This document shows positions 19,249-30,155 of a DNA stretch of 64,000 nucleotides, one piece after another (position 1 is the first letter of the stretch; each line of letters opens with the position of its first letter). The position numbers were made by a program, and so were the translations under genes. The notes under the pieces were generated by a model, which saw only the letters and a program-made list of their open reading frames with translations, did no database searches and had not been told where the DNA came from. Origin of the DNA: Halobaculum sp. MBLA0147 (GTDB lineage Archaea; Halobacteriota; Halobacteria; Halobacteriales; Haloferacaceae); assembly GCF_041361345.1 (NCBI RefSeq), contig NZ_JBGKAD010000001.1:1240001-1304000 (forward strand). Reading direction: 5' to 3'.

Positions 19249-19830
19249 ATGACCGACGACGAAGACGGAACCAGCAGACGGAGTGTCTTGAGACGTATCG
19301 GAGCGACGACTGTCGCGGCCAGTGGCTTCGCGGCGACCGCCAGCGCCACCTCGGGGTCGTCCGACGACGTCGCGCGAGTGAGTGACGAGGTGGTGCAGAG
19401 TGAGTTCGAACCGGCGGTGGCTCGTACCGTCGAGCGGCTGGTGGAGCGTGGAGTTCTGTCGGGCTCCGTCGACGTCGACGCGCTGCACGACGCGACCCGA
19501 CGTAGCGACCGGTTCGCGGACATCGACGTACGTCGACTGCAGGTCGGAGCGGGAGGAGACTATCTCCAGGCGTCTCCGAGCGGTTCCTCCGAGGTCGGCC
19601 TGTTCGTGGACCGAGGCCGAGACGTCGCGTACGCGGCAGTCCGGGGAGAGGCTGGTGTCGAGATCCTGAGTCCCCAGTTCGACGACAGACGAGTCACGAC
19701 CGCCGGGAAGTGTGGCACCGAGTGCTTCGACGACCCGACCTGTCCGCTCGACACTGGGTTCCAAGAGACGTACTACATCAAGGAACTCGACAGTTGTGTC
19801 CCGTACCTGACCGGCTGCGGTTGTCCGTGA
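19249..19830 (+). CDS. Tat-exported Cys-rich peptide precursor (bacteriocin/halocin-like architecture)
   Basis: 193 residues. The N-terminal twin-arginine signal SRRSVLRRIGATTVAASGFAATASA spans residues 9-33. The middle (35-150) is acidic and charged. The last 40 residues hold six Cys: C155, C159, C165, C183, C190 and C192, ending GCGCP. Exported proprotein with a compact Cys-rich C-terminus is the layout of microhalocin precursors such as halocin C8, but I see no clear sequence match, so the function is open. An AT-rich promoter (TATTATTAGTTTTC) sits about 75 bases upstream. It occupies the position after pdhC where an E3 gene is often found. Confidence 0.65.
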   Translation: MTDDEDGTSRRSVLRRIGATTVAASGFAATASATSGSSDDVARVSDEVVQSEFEPAVARTVERLVERGVLSGSVDVDALHDATRRSDRFADIDVRRLQVGAGGDYLQASPSGSSEVGLFVDRGRDVAYAAVRGEAGVEILSPQFDDRRVTTAGKCGTECFDDPTCPLDTGFQETYYIKELDSCVPYLTGCGCP

Positions 19831-22401: not shown

Positions 22402-25116
22402 ATGCCGACCGACCCGTCCGTCCTCTGTCTCCCCCCGAGCGAGGAGGACGGCGACGAACTCGCCGCCGCTCTCGCGGACGCCGAGGCCGTCACTACCACG
22501 GTCGCGTCCCCCACAGATCCGCCAGAGGATCCCGCCTCGTCGTTCGACTGTGTGGTGGTCACACCCGCGTCGCTCGACGAACCGGCCGTCGAGACGGTCG
22601 TGGGGAAGCCGCTGCCGGTGGTGCTCACGGACGGCGGGACAGACGTGCTCCCGGAGACGGTCGCTCGCGTGGCGACCGGAGAGCGTCGCCCGACCGCGGA
22701 CAACCCGATCGAGAGCGGCGGGCTGCTCGACCCGGCAGAGAGCGACGACGACACGACGCCCGGCGCGGCGACGGCGGAGGCGAGCACGGCGGGGCCGGCG
22801 GCCGCGGGGACCGACGCCTCGGGGTTCGCGGCCGCCGCCGAGGAGACGTTCGACCCCGAGGTGCTCAAGCGGGCCGTCGACGCCGCACAGACGCCGCTGA
22901 CGCTCAGCGATCCGAGCCGTCCGGACAACCCGATGGTGTACGTCAACGAGGCGTTCGAGCGGGTGACCGGCTACGACGCCGAGGCGTGTCTCGGGCGCAA
23001 CTGCCGGTTCCTGCAGGGGCCGGAGACGGACGAGCGGGCCGTCGAGCAGATCAGGGCGGCCATCGACGCCCGCGAGCCGGTCACGGTGGAGTTGACGAAC
23101 TACACCGCCGACGGGGAGCCGTTCCGCAACCGGCTCACCGTCACGCCGGTGTACGACGACGGGGAGTTGGTCCACTTCCTCGGCTCACAGGAGGACGTGA
23201 CCGACGAGTGGCGGGCGCGCCGCGACGCCGAGTTGGTGCGGAGTCTCGTCAACGAGGCCAACGACCTCGTGTTGGTGACGGACCCGGAGACCGGCGAGAT
23301 CGTCGACGCGAACCGGACGGCCTGCGAGGAGTTGGGGTACGACTACGCGACGCTGACGGACATGACGCCGGCCGGCGTCGACCCGCGGTTCGACGACGCC
23401 GACGACTACCGCGCGTACCTCGACGACGGCGACGGCGCCATCGAGCAGTCGACCACCGAGGGCCGCTTCCAGCGCGCGGACGGCTCGACGTTCCCCGTCG
23501 AGGTGACCGGCCGCGTCACGGAGTTCGACGGCCGGCAGTACCGGCTCGCCATCGCACGCGACATCACGGAGCGGAAGCGGCGCGAGCGCCGCCGACGCGA
23601 GCTGTCGGCCGCCATCGAGGAGCTGTACGCGGTCGACAGCCAGACCGCGGTGGCGGACACGGCCGTCGAGATCACCGCGCGGGCGCTGGACCTGGAACTG
23701 TCGGCGGTCCGGCTCCGCGACGAGACCGGCCACCGGCTGGAGCCGGTGGCGATCAGCCCCGCGGCGGTGGACGCCGCCGCCGACGACGCCGAACTCGCGG
23801 CCGCGTTCCCCGCCTACGACATCGACGGCTCCGCACCCCACGCGGAGGCGTACGCGACGGGCGAGCCGGTTCGGGTCACGGACACGGCGGTGCTCACCGA
23901 CGGCCACGAGCGGCCGGCGGTGGACGCGTTGGTGTGTCTCCCGTTGGGCGCCCACGGCGTGTTCAGCGTCGGCGCGCACGCCGACGAGACGCTCACGGAC
24001 GGGGACGTGGAGCTGTTGGAACTGTTCGCGGGCAACGTCCGCGCCGCACTCGACAGGCTGGCCGTCGAGCGGCGTGTTCGCGAGCAGCGCGACGACCTGC
24101 AGGTGCTCAACCAGATGGTGCGCCACGACATCCGCAACGACCTGCAGGCGACGCTGGCGTTCGCCGAGACCATCGCCGACGTGGGCGAGGGTGACGTGGC
24201 CGAGTTCGCCGACCGGATCGTCGAGTCGACGCGCAACGCGATGGAGTTGACCAAGACCGCCCGCGACCTCGGCGAGACGATGCTCCAACCGGAGCGCGAA
24301 CGGAAGCCGATCCCGTTGCGCGGGACGGTTCAGTCGCAACTCGACGAGGTGCGCTCGACCGCACAGGGGGCGGTGATCACCACCGACGGGACGATCCCGC
24401 GGGTGGACGTGCTCGCCGACGACATGTTCGACTCGGCCGTGCGGAACCTCCTGACGAACGCGGTCGAACACAACGACGGCGCCGTCCCGGAGGTGACCGT
24501 GTCCGCGACGGTCGAGGAGGGGGACGACGACGGTCCCGACCGCTGGGCGACACTGCGGGTCGCCGACGACGGGCCGGGTGTGCCGCCAGACCGGCGCGAG
24601 GAGATCTTCGGGAAGGGGGAGAAGGGCCTCGACAGCGAGGGCACCGGGATCGGACTGTACCTCGTCCAGACGCTCGCCGAGAACGCCGGCGGCGAGGTGT
24701 GGGTCGAGGACGGCGACCCGGAGGGAGCGGTGTTCGTCCTCCGACTCCCGGTCGCGGAGCGAGACGACTGGGCCGGCGGCGGAGACGGCGGCGTAGGCGA
24801 CGAGTCGGTCGTCGGCGTCGGCGGCGTCGAGGGTGTCGAGAGTACACAGGGCGCCGAGAGTGTAGCGAGTGCCGAGAGTGCCGGGAGCGCAGAGAGTGGC
24901 GACGACACCGACGCGTTCGCTGCGGCGATCGGCCCGGAGACGACCGATCCCGTCGAGAACGGCTACGACGGCAGTGGTGGCGAGGACGGACACGGCGGCG
25001 AGGCTGCAGAGGACGACGCCGCCACGGAAGGTGAGAGCGACGGCGGAGACGACGGTGGTGACGCCGCGGAAGGTAATGGCGACGGCGAAGACGACGGCGG
25101 CGACGCCCGGGCCTGA
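22402..25116 (+). CDS. Blue-light (LOV) sensor histidine kinase with PAS and GAF domains
   Basis: 904 residues from ATG 22402 (TTTTGACG lies about 25 bases upstream). After a Glu/Ala-rich N-terminal region there is a LOV domain with the flavin-adduct motif GRNCRFLQGPETD, Cys201 being the photoactive cysteine. A second PAS domain (about 275-395), a GAF domain (about 400-560), a phosphoacceptor helix NQMVRHDIRND with His575 and an HATPase_c domain (N box NLLTNAVEHN; G boxes ADDGPGVP and GTGIGLYL) follow. About 120 C-terminal residues are acidic Gly/Asp/Glu low complexity. No transmembrane segment is visible, so it is a cytosolic light or redox sensor; its response regulator is not adjacent. Confidence 0.9.
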   Translation: MPTDPSVLCLPPSEEDGDELAAALADAEAVTTTVASPTDPPEDPASSFDCVVVTPASLDEPAVETVVGKPLPVVLTDGGTDVLPETVARVATGERRPTADNPIESGGLLDPAESDDDTTPGAATAEASTAGPAAAGTDASGFAAAAEETFDPEVLKRAVDAAQTPLTLSDPSRPDNPMVYVNEAFERVTGYDAEACLGRNCRFLQGPETDERAVEQIRAAIDAREPVTVELTNYTADGEPFRNRLTVTPVYDDGELVHFLGSQEDVTDEWRARRDAELVRSLVNEANDLVLVTDPETGEIVDANRTACEELGYDYATLTDMTPAGVDPRFDDADDYRAYLDDGDGAIEQSTTEGRFQRADGSTFPVEVTGRVTEFDGRQYRLAIARDITERKRRERRRRELSAAIEELYAVDSQTAVADTAVEITARALDLELSAVRLRDETGHRLEPVAISPAAVDAAADDAELAAAFPAYDIDGSAPHAEAYATGEPVRVTDTAVLTDGHERPAVDALVCLPLGAHGVFSVGAHADETLTDGDVELLELFAGNVRAALDRLAVERRVREQRDDLQVLNQMVRHDIRNDLQATLAFAETIADVGEGDVAEFADRIVESTRNAMELTKTARDLGETMLQPERERKPIPLRGTVQSQLDEVRSTAQGAVITTDGTIPRVDVLADDMFDSAVRNLLTNAVEHNDGAVPEVTVSATVEEGDDDGPDRWATLRVADDGPGVPPDRREEIFGKGEKGLDSEGTGIGLYLVQTLAENAGGEVWVEDGDPEGAVFVLRLPVAERDDWAGGGDGGVGDESVVGVGGVEGVESTQGAESVASAESAGSAESGDDTDAFAAAIGPETTDPVENGYDGSGGEDGHGGEAAEDDAATEGESDGGDDGGDAAEGNGDGEDDGGDARA

Positions 25117-25374
25117 GCGGTCGGTCGCGGTGGGGGACGGAGTCACGTCGTCGCCCGGTCGGGTGCGTCTCGACGCTACCCACTCCCGTCAGTCGTCGTC
25201 CGTCCCCGGCTCGCCGGTCGCGGCGTCGGTGCCGCGTTCGGCCATCGTCTCAGCGAGACGATCGATACGTAGAGTGTATCTTCGCGAAATCTGTCCGAGA
25301 CGGCGTGTCGTCGTACGAAGAACATAGATAGAAACTGCGTCAAATTCTTAACCTTATAATATGACTATAGACAC

Positions 25375-26394
25375 GTGACAGACGATAAAACGAGAGACGA
25401 TATAGCAATACGTGTCGATCGTCTTCACAAAACGTTCGGTGGGGAGGACGGCACGACTGCCGTCGACGGGGTCAGTTTCGAGGTCCCCTCGGGATCTGTC
25501 GTCGGAATCCTCGGTCCGAACGGTGCCGGGAAGACGACGACGATCAAGTCGATTCTCGGCTTAGTCCAGCCCGACGCAGGTGAGATAGAGGTCTCGAACA
25601 TCGACGTACGAGAACAGCCGCGGGCTGCCTACGCTCGGATGGGTGCGATACTCGAGGGCGCACGGAACATCTACTGGCGGCTCACCGTCCGCGAGAATCT
25701 CGAGTTCTTCGCAGGGTTAGGAGGAGATCACCCGGAGCGTCTACGAGAACGTCACGACAGGTTACTCGAGCGGTTCGAACTCGCCGACTGGGCGGACACG
25801 CCTGTCCGGGAACTCTCACGGGGAATGAAGCAGAAGGTGTCTCTCGCCACGACACTCGCGAGAGATGTCGACGTCGTGTTCATGGACGAACCGACTCTCG
25901 GTCTCGACGTGGAAGCGTCGGTCGAACTCCGGTCCGAACTCCGACGGCTGTCGGCTGACGAGGAGGTGACAGTCGTCCTGACCAGTCACGACATGGACGT
26001 GATCGAACAGGTCTGTGACAGTGTGATACTACTCACCGACGGGTCCGTACTCACACACGAAGAGGTCGATCGGTTGATCGACACGTTCCGGACCAAGGAG
26101 TACCGTGTGACGCTCGCGGCACCCGTCTCCGACGACGTTCGCCGGCGTGTCGAACGTGTTACAGACGCGGACTGGGAGCGCAGCGGTGATCGCGTGTCGG
26201 TAGCGTTCCGGGCACCCAGAGGCGAGACGGTCTACGACGTGGTCGAGCTGCTCTCCGACGCCGGCATCGAACTACGTGACATCGAGTCGATGGAGCCGAA
26301 CCTCGAAGATGTCTTCCTCCACCTAACCGAGGAGACGACGGAGTCGTCGGAGTTCGACGGCCTCGATCAGGTGGCAGAACGGGGGCGATCGTGA
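25375..26394 (+). CDS. ABC transporter ATP-binding protein (ABC-2 type exporter)
   Basis: 339 residues from GTG 25375; CCTTATAATATG 25-30 bases upstream is a strong leaderless promoter. Walker A GPNGAGKTTT near 47, Q-loop region, signature LSRGMKQKVSLA near 145, Walker B VVFMDEPTLGLD near 165 and H-loop SHDMDV. The about 100-residue C-terminal extension (EYRVTLAAPVSDDVRRRVERV to LTEETTESSEF) is typical of DrrA/CcmA-like exporter ATPases. It overlaps the permease by 4 bases and leads a cluster of two small precursors and a methyltransferase, so it most likely exports or gives immunity to their product. GC is visibly lower than in flanking genes. Confidence 0.9.
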   Translation: MTDDKTRDDIAIRVDRLHKTFGGEDGTTAVDGVSFEVPSGSVVGILGPNGAGKTTTIKSILGLVQPDAGEIEVSNIDVREQPRAAYARMGAILEGARNIYWRLTVRENLEFFAGLGGDHPERLRERHDRLLERFELADWADTPVRELSRGMKQKVSLATTLARDVDVVFMDEPTLGLDVEASVELRSELRRLSADEEVTVVLTSHDMDVIEQVCDSVILLTDGSVLTHEEVDRLIDTFRTKEYRVTLAAPVSDDVRRRVERVTDADWERSGDRVSVAFRAPRGETVYDVVELLSDAGIELRDIESMEPNLEDVFLHLTEETTESSEFDGLDQVAERGRS

Positions 26395-27194
26395 CTATGA
26401 CCCGATCAGAGTCTGGACACTCGGGTTCGCTGTGGCTGTTGTTCCGTACGATCTCGCAGAAGGCGATCGTCACGATGGTTCGGTACCCAGTCGACACGGC
26501 TTCGCAGTTCGTCGGGTTGTTCGTTCTGTTCCTGTTGGTCTTCTTCGGCGGTACCGCAGTCGGTGGTCAGCAGTTCTCGGACAGTCTCGAAGGGGTCGTG
26601 ATCGGATTCTTCCTCTTCACCGTCGCCTCGGGGGCGTACGCCGGTGTGGCGAACAGTGTCTCCACCGAGTCCGAGTGGGGGACACTGGAACGCCTCTACA
26701 TCTCTCCGTACCGGTTCGGTACGGTCGTCGCCGTGGATGCACTGGTAAACGTCGTGATCAGTGTCCTCTGGGCCGTCGTGCTGTTGGTCCTGATGATGGG
26801 AGTCACCGGTCGGTGGCTCAGCGTCGATCCACTCACTGTTGTGCCCTTGTTGGTCGCAACCGTCACACCGGTCTTGGGACTCGGGTTCGCGTTCGGCGGT
26901 GCGGCGTTGGTGTACAAACGAATCGAGAGCGTGTTCCAGTTGGTGCAGTTCGCGTTCGTCGCACTCATCGCTGCACCGGTCGGTGAAGTCTGGATACTCC
27001 GACTGTTACCCGCCTCACACGGAGCCTACCTCACCCGCCGAGCGATCGAGTCGAACCGCAGTCTACTCGAGTTTCCATCCGGGGAGATCGCGCTCGTCTT
27101 CACGACTGCGATCGTCTACTTCACCGTGGGTTACTACGTGTTCGTGCGTGCGACGACGGTCGCCCGTAGTCGCGGTGTGATGGGACACTACTGA
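26391..27194 (+). CDS. ABC-2 family transporter permease
   Basis: 267 residues (GTG 26391 overlaps the ATPase stop; ATG 26397 is the alternative start). About six hydrophobic segments: FVGLFVLFLLVFFGG near 40, a second near 65, then VVISVLWAVVLLVLMMGV, VVPLLVATVTPVLGLGFAFGG, FQLVQFAFVALIAAPVG and ALVFTTAIVYFTVGYYVFV at the C-terminus. Layout fits the DrrB/ABC-2 fold that pairs with the preceding ATPase. It is followed by a 195-base gap with a new promoter and then the first precursor gene. Confidence 0.85.
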   Translation: MTMTRSESGHSGSLWLLFRTISQKAIVTMVRYPVDTASQFVGLFVLFLLVFFGGTAVGGQQFSDSLEGVVIGFFLFTVASGAYAGVANSVSTESEWGTLERLYISPYRFGTVVAVDALVNVVISVLWAVVLLVLMMGVTGRWLSVDPLTVVPLLVATVTPVLGLGFAFGGAALVYKRIESVFQLVQFAFVALIAAPVGEVWILRLLPASHGAYLTRRAIESNRSLLEFPSGEIALVFTTAIVYFTVGYYVFVRATTVARSRGVMGHY

Positions 27195-27299
27195 CGGCAC
27201 ACGCCGCTCCCGTCGGCCGGAAACCCGTCTCTCATCCGTTGCTCGGCGGACTCCCCGTCGTCAGACACGCCCACCCGGTGAATTCGTCCTCCCGAGTAC

Positions 27300-27370
27300 T
27301 ATAATGTAAATTATGTAAAAGTCTAATACGTTCTACAGTAATTGTACCGTGTGCACGTCCAAAGCACACG
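27300..27370 (+). promoter_or_regulatory. Promoter and 5'-UTR hairpin of precursor gene 1
   Basis: Two AT-rich TATA candidates, TATAATGT (27300-27307) and TTATGTAAAA (27311-27320), are followed by a perfect 7-bp hairpin: CGTGTGC (27348-27354) pairs with GCACACG (27364-27370) around 9 nt. The coding start at 27390 then lies about 48 bases after the predicted transcription start, an unusually long leader for a haloarchaeon. The hairpin may be an operator or a translation control element. Confidence 0.55.
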
Positions 27371-27389
27371 TGATGTGATTCACAGGAGC

Positions 27390-27572
27390 ATGGAGAGCGA
27401 ACAGTTCGTGCAGGCGTTGCAGCACGGGGACCCCGACCTCGACAACCTCGATCTGTCCGAGGAGGAGAAAGACGCGATCCGCTCCGACGACGACAGCGAC
27501 ATTCAGGAGTTGATCGGGACGATCAAGTCCGACGTCCTCGTCGCGGTCGTAGTCACGATCGCCCGAGCATAG
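27390..27572 (+). CDS. Putative borosin-type RiPP precursor peptide 1
   Basis: 60 residues. Leader residues 1-45 are acidic and helical (FVQALQHGDPDLDNLDLSEEE, then DIQELIGTIK), resembling Nif11-like and split-borosin leader domains. The tail DVLVAVVVTIARA (48-60) is almost entirely beta-branched or small hydrophobic residues, as borosin core peptides are. ATG 27390 is preceded closely by AGGAG; a GTG at 27372 is an alternative. Its leader aligns with precursor 2: FVQALQHGDPDLDNLDLSEE against FLQQFNSDPEAALAEMDVSEE. Precursor role is inferred from the neighbouring methyltransferase. Confidence 0.72.
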   Translation: MESEQFVQALQHGDPDLDNLDLSEEEKDAIRSDDDSDIQELIGTIKSDVLVAVVVTIARA

Positions 27573-27670
27573 AGGGAGCAACCCCCTTGTCCATCTTGTA
27601 TATGTACATTTATGTCTCTCCGACAAATATGCGTTAACTACAAGTAGATATAACACACACTGAGGAATAC

Positions 27671-27690
27671 ATGTCAGAAGCTTCTGACAT
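27671..27690. promoter_or_regulatory. 20-bp perfect palindrome at the start codon of precursor gene 2
   Basis: ATGTCAGAAG (27671-27680) is followed directly by its exact reverse complement (27681-27690), so the palindrome begins on the A of the start codon. GAGG at 27662-27665 is a Shine-Dalgarno with normal spacing. The palindrome could be a repressor operator or an mRNA fold that hides the start codon. AT-rich promoter elements (GTTAACTAC, AGATATAAC) lie at about 27632-27655. Confidence 0.7.
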
Positions 27691-27907
27691 TCAGACGGTG
27701 TTGGACCGATCTATGAACGACGAGAAGTTCCTCCAACAGTTCAACTCGGATCCAGAAGCTGCTCTCGCCGAGATGGACGTGAGCGAAGAGGCCGAGGAGA
27801 GCCTGAAGGCGGAGGAAGACGGGAGTATCTACGACTACCTCGACTCGCTCAATATGGCAACCGTGTACACGATCACGATCACCTACGTCTCGAGAAAGCG
27901 GGACTGA
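27671..27907 (+). CDS. Putative borosin-type RiPP precursor peptide 2
   Basis: 78 residues. Leader residues 1-60 are acidic and helical (DIQTVLDRSMNDEKFLQQFNSDPEAALAEMDVSEEAEESLKAEEDGSIYDYLDSL). The tail MATVYTITITYVSRKRD (62-78) alternates Thr with Ile, Val and Tyr and ends in a basic stretch, so it could be trimmed. It has its own promoter and a GAGG ribosome site, suggesting expression apart from precursor 1. Twenty bases separate its stop from the methyltransferase gene. Confidence 0.74.
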   Translation: MSEASDIQTVLDRSMNDEKFLQQFNSDPEAALAEMDVSEEAEESLKAEEDGSIYDYLDSLNMATVYTITITYVSRKRD

Positions 27908-27927
27908 CTGAACAGATTCTCGTTATC

Positions 27928-28776
27928 ATGGACGGCTTCGACAACCCGGTAGACATCTACATCGTCGGGACTGGCATGGTGGGGTACCGGCAGATGACCG
28001 AAGAGGCGGAGGCTGCGCTCCGAAACTCGGAGACGGCGTACTTGATCCACTACCAGAAGGTGGTCGCCGACTACGTCGAGGACACCGTCGCGTCCGAACT
28101 GGGCGACGTGTCTGGAGAACTGATACAGTTGACCGACGAGTACCAGGAAGACGAGGACCGAGCGAACACGTACGAGCGCATGGCGGCACGGGTTATGGAT
28201 GGTGCCGAAGCGGCGGACAACCCAGTCTGTCTCGCACTGTACGGACATCCGAACGTCTTCGTCTCGCCGACCGAGTGGATCGCCGATGAGGCCGAGGAAA
28301 GAAACATGAACGTCGACATCCGTCCCGGCGTCTCGTCGATGGATGCGTTGTACAGTGATCTGATGTTGGACCCGTCACGGAACGGGATTCAGATGTTCGA
28401 GGCGACGGACCTCCTGATCCGCGAGTTCGATCTCAACCCGCACGTACCGGCGTTCATCTGGCAGATCGGCACTCTTGAGACGGTGCTGTACACGACCGCG
28501 GACAGTAGTCCGGAACGGTTCGAGCGGTTCAGAGAGTACCTCGAACGCTTCTACCCGTCCGACCACACCGTGTACATCTGTCAGACAGCAGTGTACCCGA
28601 CGACACAGTCGAAACAGATCCCCGTCGAGATCGGTGACTTCGAGGAGAAACACGACGAGATCAACGGGGTGCAGACGCTGTACGTCCCCCCGGTAGAGCG
28701 GAAGGAGGTCGTGAACGAGGAGTTGGAAGAACAAGTCGTCTCCTCGGACCACTTGGAGACGATCACCGAGAACTGA
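27928..28776 (+). CDS. Borosin-like peptide backbone alpha-N-methyltransferase (tetrapyrrole methylase fold)
   Basis: 282 residues. The N-terminal VDIYIVGTGMVGYRQMTEEAEAAL is the tetrapyrrole-methylase SAM fold. Unlike diphthine synthase or CobA types it has LALYGHPNVFVSPT (YGHP at 105-108) and DIRPGVSSMDALYSDLMLDPS, the motifs of OphMA/SonM borosin methyltransferases, followed by EATDLLIRE. Near residue 78, DEYQEDEDRANTY places Tyr72, Arg78 and Tyr82 where OphMA has Tyr66, Arg72 and Tyr76; the OphMA Tyr63 position is Thr69 here. Core peptides are in separate genes, so this is a split system acting in trans. It adds methyl groups to backbone amides by analogy. GC is lower than in flanking genes. 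Confidence 0.82.
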   Translation: MDGFDNPVDIYIVGTGMVGYRQMTEEAEAALRNSETAYLIHYQKVVADYVEDTVASELGDVSGELIQLTDEYQEDEDRANTYERMAARVMDGAEAADNPVCLALYGHPNVFVSPTEWIADEAEERNMNVDIRPGVSSMDALYSDLMLDPSRNGIQMFEATDLLIREFDLNPHVPAFIWQIGTLETVLYTTADSSPERFERFREYLERFYPSDHTVYICQTAVYPTTQSKQIPVEIGDFEEKHDEINGVQTLYVPPVERKEVVNEELEEQVVSSDHLETITEN

Positions 28777-28796
28777 ACGACTGGACGGTCACTCGA

Positions 28797-30155
28797 TCAG
28801 GTTCCTCGTTCCGCCATCATGTCGGCTGCGCGATCGGCCCAGCCGGTGTACCGGAAGCCGGCGACGACGACGAGCGTCATCCAGACGTAGTGGAGCCCGA
28901 CGGCGAGGTACGCCCCCGTCGGGCCGAGTCCGGCGACGACACCGAGCAGGTAGGTGCCGCCGAGTAGGACTCCGAACACGCCCGAGAGCCGCGCGACCAG
29001 CGGGACGCGCGTCTCGCTGGCGCCCTGGAGCGCCCCCGACAGGACGACGTAGGCGACGAGGAACACCCCGGTAGCGCCGTACACCCGGGCGAACGCGACG
29101 GCGTACGGGACCGTCGACGGGTCGTCGGTGAACACGCGGACGAACGCCGGGGCGAGCCCGACGAGCGCGAAGCCGACGACGCCGACGGTCGCCAGCCCGA
29201 GCCCGGTGGTGGCGTACCCCTCGTACAGCGCGCGGTCCGGGTCGCCGTCACCCAGCGCCTGGCCGACGACGACGGAGCTGGCGACGTTGTAGCCGCGCGA
29301 GAGCGGACTCGTCACCTGTTGGTACATCCGTCGCCCGATCTGGAACCCGGCGTTGACCGGCGTCCCGAAGCCGAGCAGCAGCGAGTTGAACGGGAACTCG
29401 GCCAGCGTGGCGGCGAACCCCTCGACGACGCGCGGGGCGGAGACGCGGACGAGTTGCCGAGCGATCACCGGGTCGCGTGGCCGGACGAGGGAGGCGTCCG
29501 ACCAGTCCGTCCACATCGCGGCGAGCAACAGCGTCGCCGTCAACCCGTTACCCACCGCCGTCGCCAGCCCGACGCCGAGGACGCCGAGTCGGGGGGCGCC
29601 GAACAGTCCTAGCCCGAACACGACGGAGCCGGCGATGTTGAGCGCGTTCGAGAGCACGTTGACGTACATCGGGGTGCGTGTGTCGCCGGTCCCCTGGAGC
29701 GAGCGCGCGCCGATCAGGGCGACGTGACGGGCCGGTGCGGTGGCGAAGACGATCGCGAGGTACGTCCCGCCGAGCGCGGCGGTCGCCGGCGACGCGCCGA
29801 GCACCGCCAGCAGTCGGTCCCCGAACAGCCAGCCGATCGCGACGAAGGGGAGTCCGGCGAGGATTCCCGTCAGGATCGCCTGTGTGACCGCCTCGTCGCG
29901 GTTGGCGACGGCGTCGGCGCCGGTGTCCTGACTCGACAGGGCGATGGCGCCGCCGCCGAGCCCGAGTCCGATCCGTAGCGGGAACCGGGCGTACAGGTCC
30001 GCCAGCCCGATGGCGACGACAGCCGCGGGGGAGAACTGCGCCGTGACGATCACGTCCGTCGTCCGCATCCCGGTCCGGAACACCTGCTCGGTCGAGACCG
30101 GCCACGACAGCGAGAGGACGCGCCGCCACACCCCGAACAGCCGACGCCAGTCCAT
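28797..30155 (-). CDS. MATE-family multidrug/toxin efflux transporter
   Basis: 452 residues with about 12 membrane segments. The MATE duplication is visible: TEQVFRTGMRTTDVIVTAQFSPAAVVAIGLADLYAR in the first half and RVVEGFAATLAEFPFNSLLLGFGTPVNAGFQIGRR in the second, plus GARSLQGTGDTRTPM and the equivalent ALQGASETRVP. It is a cation-coupled exporter of drugs or metabolites. It is convergent with the methyltransferase, with 20 bases between them, but its GC is like the rest of the chromosome, so membership of the cluster is unclear. Confidence 0.92.
   Translation of the reverse strand: MDWRRLFGVWRRVLSLSWPVSTEQVFRTGMRTTDVIVTAQFSPAAVVAIGLADLYARFPLRIGLGLGGGAIALSSQDTGADAVANRDEAVTQAILTGILAGLPFVAIGWLFGDRLLAVLGASPATAALGGTYLAIVFATAPARHVALIGARSLQGTGDTRTPMYVNVLSNALNIAGSVVFGLGLFGAPRLGVLGVGLATAVGNGLTATLLLAAMWTDWSDASLVRPRDPVIARQLVRVSAPRVVEGFAATLAEFPFNSLLLGFGTPVNAGFQIGRRMYQQVTSPLSRGYNVASSVVVGQALGDGDPDRALYEGYATTGLGLATVGVVGFALVGLAPAFVRVFTDDPSTVPYAVAFARVYGATGVFLVAYVVLSGALQGASETRVPLVARLSGVFGVLLGGTYLLGVVAGLGPTGAYLAVGLHYVWMTLVVVAGFRYTGWADRAADMMAERGT

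Follow-up and report, generated by a model that had tools for sequence, protein, structure and literature searches.

A probable split borosin gene cluster with two precursor peptides in the haloarchaeon Halobaculum sp. MBLA0147

We analyzed a 64,000-nucleotide stretch of DNA (the window) from Halobaculum sp. MBLA0147, whose assembly is a 4.29-Mb haloarchaeal genome, and found a five-gene locus that is very probably (probability about 0.88) a split borosin RiPP gene cluster, in which one methyltransferase would act on both leader-bearing precursors and an ABC-2 transporter pair would provide export or protection. On the + strand, an ABC ATPase and an ABC-2 permease come first; precursor 1 follows after a gap of 156 bp, precursor 2 after a spacer of 98 bp, and the methyltransferase 20 bp further on (Table 1). 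The enzyme family, the leader family, their adjacency, the conservation of the leader, the divergence of the cores and the presence of a transporter can all be read directly from the DNA. The matches of the enzyme to borosin structures and of the precursor profile to SonA, the borosin precursor of Shewanella, are two independent routes to the same system. The initial annotation had recognized duplicated RiPP-type precursors, a reading that holds, but it had overlooked the neighbouring borosin methyltransferase, which identifies the system.

Table 1. Features of the putative borosin cluster, in positions of the window
Feature	Position	Strand	Basis or remark
ABC transporter ATP-binding protein, 339 aa, DrrA-like	25375..26394	+	Pfam ABC_tran 2.9e-30; putative exporter/immunity ATPase
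ABC-2 type permease, 267 aa	26391..27194	+	ABC2_membrane_3 6.9e-7, slightly below gathering score
AT-rich stretch 5' of precursor 1, candidate promoter	27300..27350	+	sequence reading
Precursor peptide 1, 73 aa from GTG 27351	27351..27572	+	leader profile 36.1 bits
Precursor 1 leader (borosin binding domain-like)	27351-27518	+	core TIKSDVLVAVVVTIARA at 27519-27569
AT-rich inter-precursor spacer, GC 0.40	27573..27670	+	GATATAA about 25 bp before ATG 27671
Precursor peptide 2, 78 aa	27671..27907	+	leader profile 47.8 bits
Precursor 2 leader	27671-27844	+	core SLNMATVYTITITYVSRKRD at 27845-27904
Putative borosin-type peptide backbone alpha-N-methyltransferase, 282 aa, TP_methylase family	27928..28776	+	Pfam TP_methylase 2.2e-19
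Low-GC block over the five genes	25375..28776	.	composition profile

Two precursors with a shared leader and different cores

Both small precursor ORFs of the initial annotation are present on the + strand, and their leaders are homologous, as had been claimed. A leader profile built solely from precursors at other loci, with the window sequences left out, matched both of them (Table 1); among about 1,900 shuffles per sequence, the highest score was about 9-12 bits. Aligned directly with each other, the two precursors scored 88 (shuffle mean 28, SD 5), a value equalled in none of 2,000 shuffles. The start of precursor 1, placed earlier at ATG 27390, had to be revised: the frame is open upstream to GTG 27351 and TTG 27342, and the profile score rises from 23.3 bits from the ATG to 36.1 bits from the GTG. 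The residues gained (STRDVIHRS ahead of MESEQF) align with the conserved first helix of the leader, which reads IQTVLDRSMNDEKF in precursor 2 and is completed by the upstream start (DVIHRSMESEQF vs TVLDRSMNDEKF). Judged from this alignment, GTG 27351 is most likely the start of precursor 1; TTG 27342 is nearly as good and may be an alternative. A search of the whole assembly with the precursor profile, at E values up to 10, returned only two sites, precursor 1 (E 4.6e-23) and precursor 2 (E 1.4e-28). Against the PDB, the seven best matches of this profile were all SonA (E 1.7e-6 to 3.9e-6). With regard to the five-helix bundle that forms the fold of a borosin leader, AlphaFold2 modelled precursor 2 from a two-sequence input as all helices, with a pLDDT of 56 that is too low for use.

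The cores of the two window precursors (TIKSDVLVAVVVTIARA vs SLNMATVYTITITYVSRKRD) differ as initially described, the core-to-core z being only 0.5 and the leader-to-leader z 7.9. Among six precursors from five genera, the mean pairwise z against shuffles was 10.4 for leaders and 0.8 for cores; leader segments trimmed to core length still gave z values of 3.3-7.1, so the gap between leader and core is not caused by length. The hydrophobic C-terminal cores (VLVAVVVTI in precursor 1, TVYTITITYV in precursor 2) have analogous V/I/T cores at loci L011, L012 and L013, and cores at other haloarchaeal loci read AAAVLVVVVNN, DVSVTIIVRIR, TSTVVIIVVV and ANGIQIAGIVLPSSEA. In the comparison of homologous loci proposed with the initial annotation, relatives were found to keep the leader, and conservation of the core was far below that of the leader. 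The earlier idea of duplicated precursors with a constrained leader and a diversifying core therefore stands across genera, whereas accelerated core evolution is absent from a closely compared Haloarcula pair, whose core codons show one synonymous and no nonsynonymous change and whose leader shows five nonsynonymous changes. Since this core is unchanged as protein, diversification is established between genera and not at short range. The basic RKRD tail of precursor 2, suggested as a cleavage site, gains nothing from the comparison, as RKRD occurs in no other precursor.

Methyltransferase, transporter and base composition

When the methyltransferase was compared with PDB sequences, all 25 matches were borosin enzymes (dbOphM 1e-25, SonM 3.4e-23, OphA and MroMA among them), and a ten-sequence family profile matched dbOphM at 2.9e-48 and SonM at 1.2e-41. 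Three SonM residues, R67, Y71 and Y93, contribute to catalysis or to the binding of SAM (PMC8429565), and the corresponding R78, Y82 and Y105 do not vary among ten sequences (nine haloarchaeal enzymes and that of Rhodobium orientis). Conservation of SonM Y58 was not upheld by spacing. The equivalent position, assigned by its distance of 9 residues before R67, would be T69 here, differs between family members (T, N, G, R, E) and, again by spacing, is I and A in bacterial plasmid relatives; an invariant Tyr lies 6 residues before the R67 counterpart, i.e. three residues after the Y58 position. As the Y58 equivalent, placed in this way, is apparently not Tyr, active-site details may differ from those of SonM. 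Codon differences in the Haloarcula pair (81 synonymous vs 11 nonsynonymous) indicate that the methyltransferase is under purifying selection. Its predicted structure reached a pLDDT of 43, too low for use.

The permease start overlaps the ATPase stop, and the two proteins are 44% (ATPase) and 46% (permease) identical to those adjoining a borosin cluster on a Haloarcula plasmid. The ABC transporter was rejected as a marker of the cluster: the permease family is found in 241 of 381 haloarchaeal genomes, so that it is position that points to a role for the transporter here. In genome G325, the best transporter homologue and the borosin locus are on separate contigs. There is no protease gene within the cluster. 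A prolyl oligopeptidase like that of Haloarcula (37% identity) is encoded on another contig of the window genome; it was dismissed as the cluster protease because nothing ties it to the cluster.

The composition profile gave a GC content of 0.56-0.61 for the block of five genes and about 0.71 on either flank, which suggests that the block was probably acquired horizontally. Neither clear insertion-type direct repeats at its edges nor tRNA genes near it were found. No relative was detected in the viral contigs or phage records searched, so a viral carrier is unlikely within those collections. The motif TCTAATAC, about 25-30 bp before GTG 27351, is a probable promoter element, its distance fitting a leaderless haloarchaeal transcript, and the AT-rich spacer between the precursors is a possible separate promoter for precursor 2 and the methyltransferase. 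In addition, a 20-nt inverted repeat (19/20 matching) pairs positions 26383-26402, at the ATPase-stop/permease-start junction, with 27545-27564, at the 3' end of the core-coding part of precursor 1. A comparable repeat arose in 0 of 200 dinucleotide shuffles of 24600-29400, and it may reflect antisense control or chance. Elsewhere in the window, 19249-19830 (+) encodes a protein of 193 aa that resembles secreted halocin-type precursors: it has a twin-arginine-like signal, and its C terminus is rich in cysteine (CGTECFDDPTCPLDTGF...CVPYLTGCGCP). Its match is to a weak TAT model only.

Distribution in haloarchaea and competing explanations

The methyltransferase was found in 9 of 391 Halobacteria genomes in an even sample that included the window genome, which corresponds to 6 of 86 genera, and the other eight haloarchaeal enzymes are 40-60% identical to that of the window. 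A family-wide search of 170 genomes returned no further full-length match. Methyltransferase-profile matches in 32 genomes (E 1e-4 to 1e-8, <35 bits) were discarded as partial matches of about 140 residues, probably to other tetrapyrrole methyltransferases. The enzyme is absent from the three other genomes of the same genus that were searched, so its distribution is patchy. A leader-bearing ORF adjoins the enzyme at all nine haloarchaeal loci, directly upstream on the same strand except at L018, where it is divergent. Among these loci, two precursors occur in the window genome only; the other eight have one each, and a genome-wide search of those eight genomes revealed no comparable second site (next best E 0.03). 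In the enzyme tree, haloarchaeal sequences fall on one side of a branch whose support (74/78) is not strong; Rhodobium is the nearest bacterial sequence, and plasmid-borne bacterial sequences are more distant. A broader proposal, which we put at slightly less than even odds, is that the locus represents an undescribed archaeal borosin branch that moved horizontally among haloarchaea on low-GC islands or plasmids, with a single methyltransferase modifying two unrelated cores per cell to give two backbone-N-methylated peptides.

Several relatives depart from the window arrangement. At L018 (10540-10890, +; genome G275), the divergent precursor carries the shared leader followed by six near-perfect DDNIGYTGDS repeats, a multi-core or repeat-core type very unlike the hydrophobic cores at other loci, and downstream of the borosin enzyme lies a second SAM methyltransferase. 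The leader ORFs at L016 (10556-10732, -) and L017 (10489-10665, -) stop at SWLINN and show no obvious hydrophobic core; the methyltransferase beside them has a conserved N terminus with no standard start codon close to it. In genome G754, from another family of the same phylum, L056 (994-2274, +) encodes a 426-aa protein with a proline-rich middle, a C-terminal borosin methyltransferase (1.4e-52 to dbOphM) and a weakly SonA-like N-terminal leader region (10.5 bits); the protein is a fused archaeal borosin whose enzyme part is C-terminal. Unannotated small ORFs with the same leader also adjoin borosin-type methyltransferases on bacterial plasmids of Sinorhizobium meliloti (L050, 2096-2395, +) and Streptomyces (L052, 2099-2428, +), and the core in Sinorhizobium, VSVNVTITLGISIP, resembles that of precursor 2 in style.

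The main competitor to two substrates is a single live one, with precursor 1 a degenerating or regulatory copy and one product made from precursor 2. We regard this as unlikely. In its favour, precursor 1 does not start with ATG, its leader has a gap of two residues within the conserved DPEA-L stretch, it scores lower against the profile (36 vs 48 bits) with no NCBIfam match, and every other haloarchaeal locus has a single precursor. Against it, the frame of precursor 1 is intact, its leader is complete from GTG 27351, and its Val/Ala/Ile core resembles those of single-precursor loci (AAAVLVVVVNN, TSTVVIIVVV). The initial suggestion that the two products form a two-component peptide draws on the two non-identical cores that share one enzyme and one transporter; the precursor pair, however, recurs at no other locus, all eight other haloarchaeal loci having one precursor, and tandem precursors often come from simple duplication, which makes joint action improbable.

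A different objection concerns the class of the system, namely that the small ORFs are LigA-like or NHLP/TOMM-type (nitrile-hydratase-type leader RiPP) proteins beside an unrelated tetrapyrrole methyltransferase. It draws on weak matches of the small ORFs to LigA (0.013), Os1348/NHLP and TIGR04509 models and on the place of the enzyme within the TP_methylase superfamily, where the nearest NCBIfam models (YabN and cobalamin enzymes) are far under cut-off. SonA itself has a LigA domain, so a resemblance to LigA is to be expected, and the curated cut-offs for NHLP/nitrile-hydratase-leader membership were not reached by NH_RiPP_Os17 with precursor 2 (7.2e-9, 35.6 vs 40 bits) or by TIGR04509, whose best score with the small ORFs was 26.9 vs 34 bits. 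With PDB matches of the enzyme exclusively to borosin enzymes, leader and methylase genes co-occurring at 9/9 loci, and the cluster free of YcaO, LanM and radical-SAM maturases, this explanation appears very improbable, and a split borosin cluster is preferred.

Proposed pathway and relation to known systems

From the genes present, we infer a pathway in which the methyltransferase would bind each precursor at its helical leader (the borosin binding domain) and methylate backbone amide nitrogens of the hydrophobic C-terminal cores with S-adenosylmethionine, after which the leader would be cut off by a protease encoded outside the cluster. The upstream ABC-2 transporter would then export the product or confer self-protection, and the product could have an antagonistic or signalling role. 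One enzyme and two precursors would thus yield two N-methylated hydrophobic peptides; two products from a single enzyme are plausible on the gene content. If so, the cluster would extend ribosomal-peptide backbone N-methylation to the third domain of life and be a source of salt-stable N-methyltransferases with a modular leader; the precursor pair would be a natural test of the tolerance of one borosin enzyme for different cores.

According to a 2024 review, borosins of types I-III come from fungi and those of types IV-X from bacteria (PMC11285071). A survey covering 11,644 archaeal genomes reported other RiPP classes, with borosins unmentioned in its main text (PMC12144867). Full-text literature searches, with the two main borosin surveys outside their coverage, found no report of archaeal borosins. 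The haloarchaeal lanthipeptides (PMC12144867) are likewise haloarchaeal RiPPs with a leader and a variable core, some of them antagonistic, but they depend on LanM thioether chemistry, whereas the window cluster has no LanM and no Cys in its cores. The fused fungal borosins OphMA and dbOphMA share a homologous methyltransferase domain, but in these the core and the enzyme form one self-methylating protein, unlike the separate genes found here.

A comparable cluster lies on a 104-kb plasmid of Haloarcula sp. CBA1115 (NZ_CP010533, WP_050038654), annotated merely as a SAM-dependent methyltransferase and a hypothetical protein, and it has a relative in genome G083. They have the same leader, a methyltransferase 46% identical to that of the window, and an adjoining ABC ATPase and permease. 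The Haloarcula cluster differs in its single precursor (core ANGIQIAGIVLPSSEA), its divergent ABC pair, a prolyl oligopeptidase immediately behind the methyltransferase and a transcription regulator downstream; the window cluster has no protease.

A described bacterial counterpart is the type IV split borosin SonM/SonA of Shewanella oneidensis (PMC8429565; PDB 7LTC, 7LTE), in which methyltransferase and precursor are likewise separate. The leader of SonA is a helical borosin binding domain that supplies most of the binding to SonM (PMC8429565). The precursors described here also join a probably helical LigA-like leader of about 55 residues to a short hydrophobic C-terminal core, and their leader is homologous to this domain (SonA 1-53) by profile (E 1.7e-6). 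In contrast to SonM/SonA, the window cluster is known from genes alone, its methyltransferase is only distantly similar to SonM, and the residue equivalent to Y58 by spacing is apparently not Tyr. In its architecture and in both components, the cluster conforms to the split borosin kind already known rather than forming a new kind of system; it differs in its archaeal host, its two non-identical precursors and the linked ABC-2 transporter pair.
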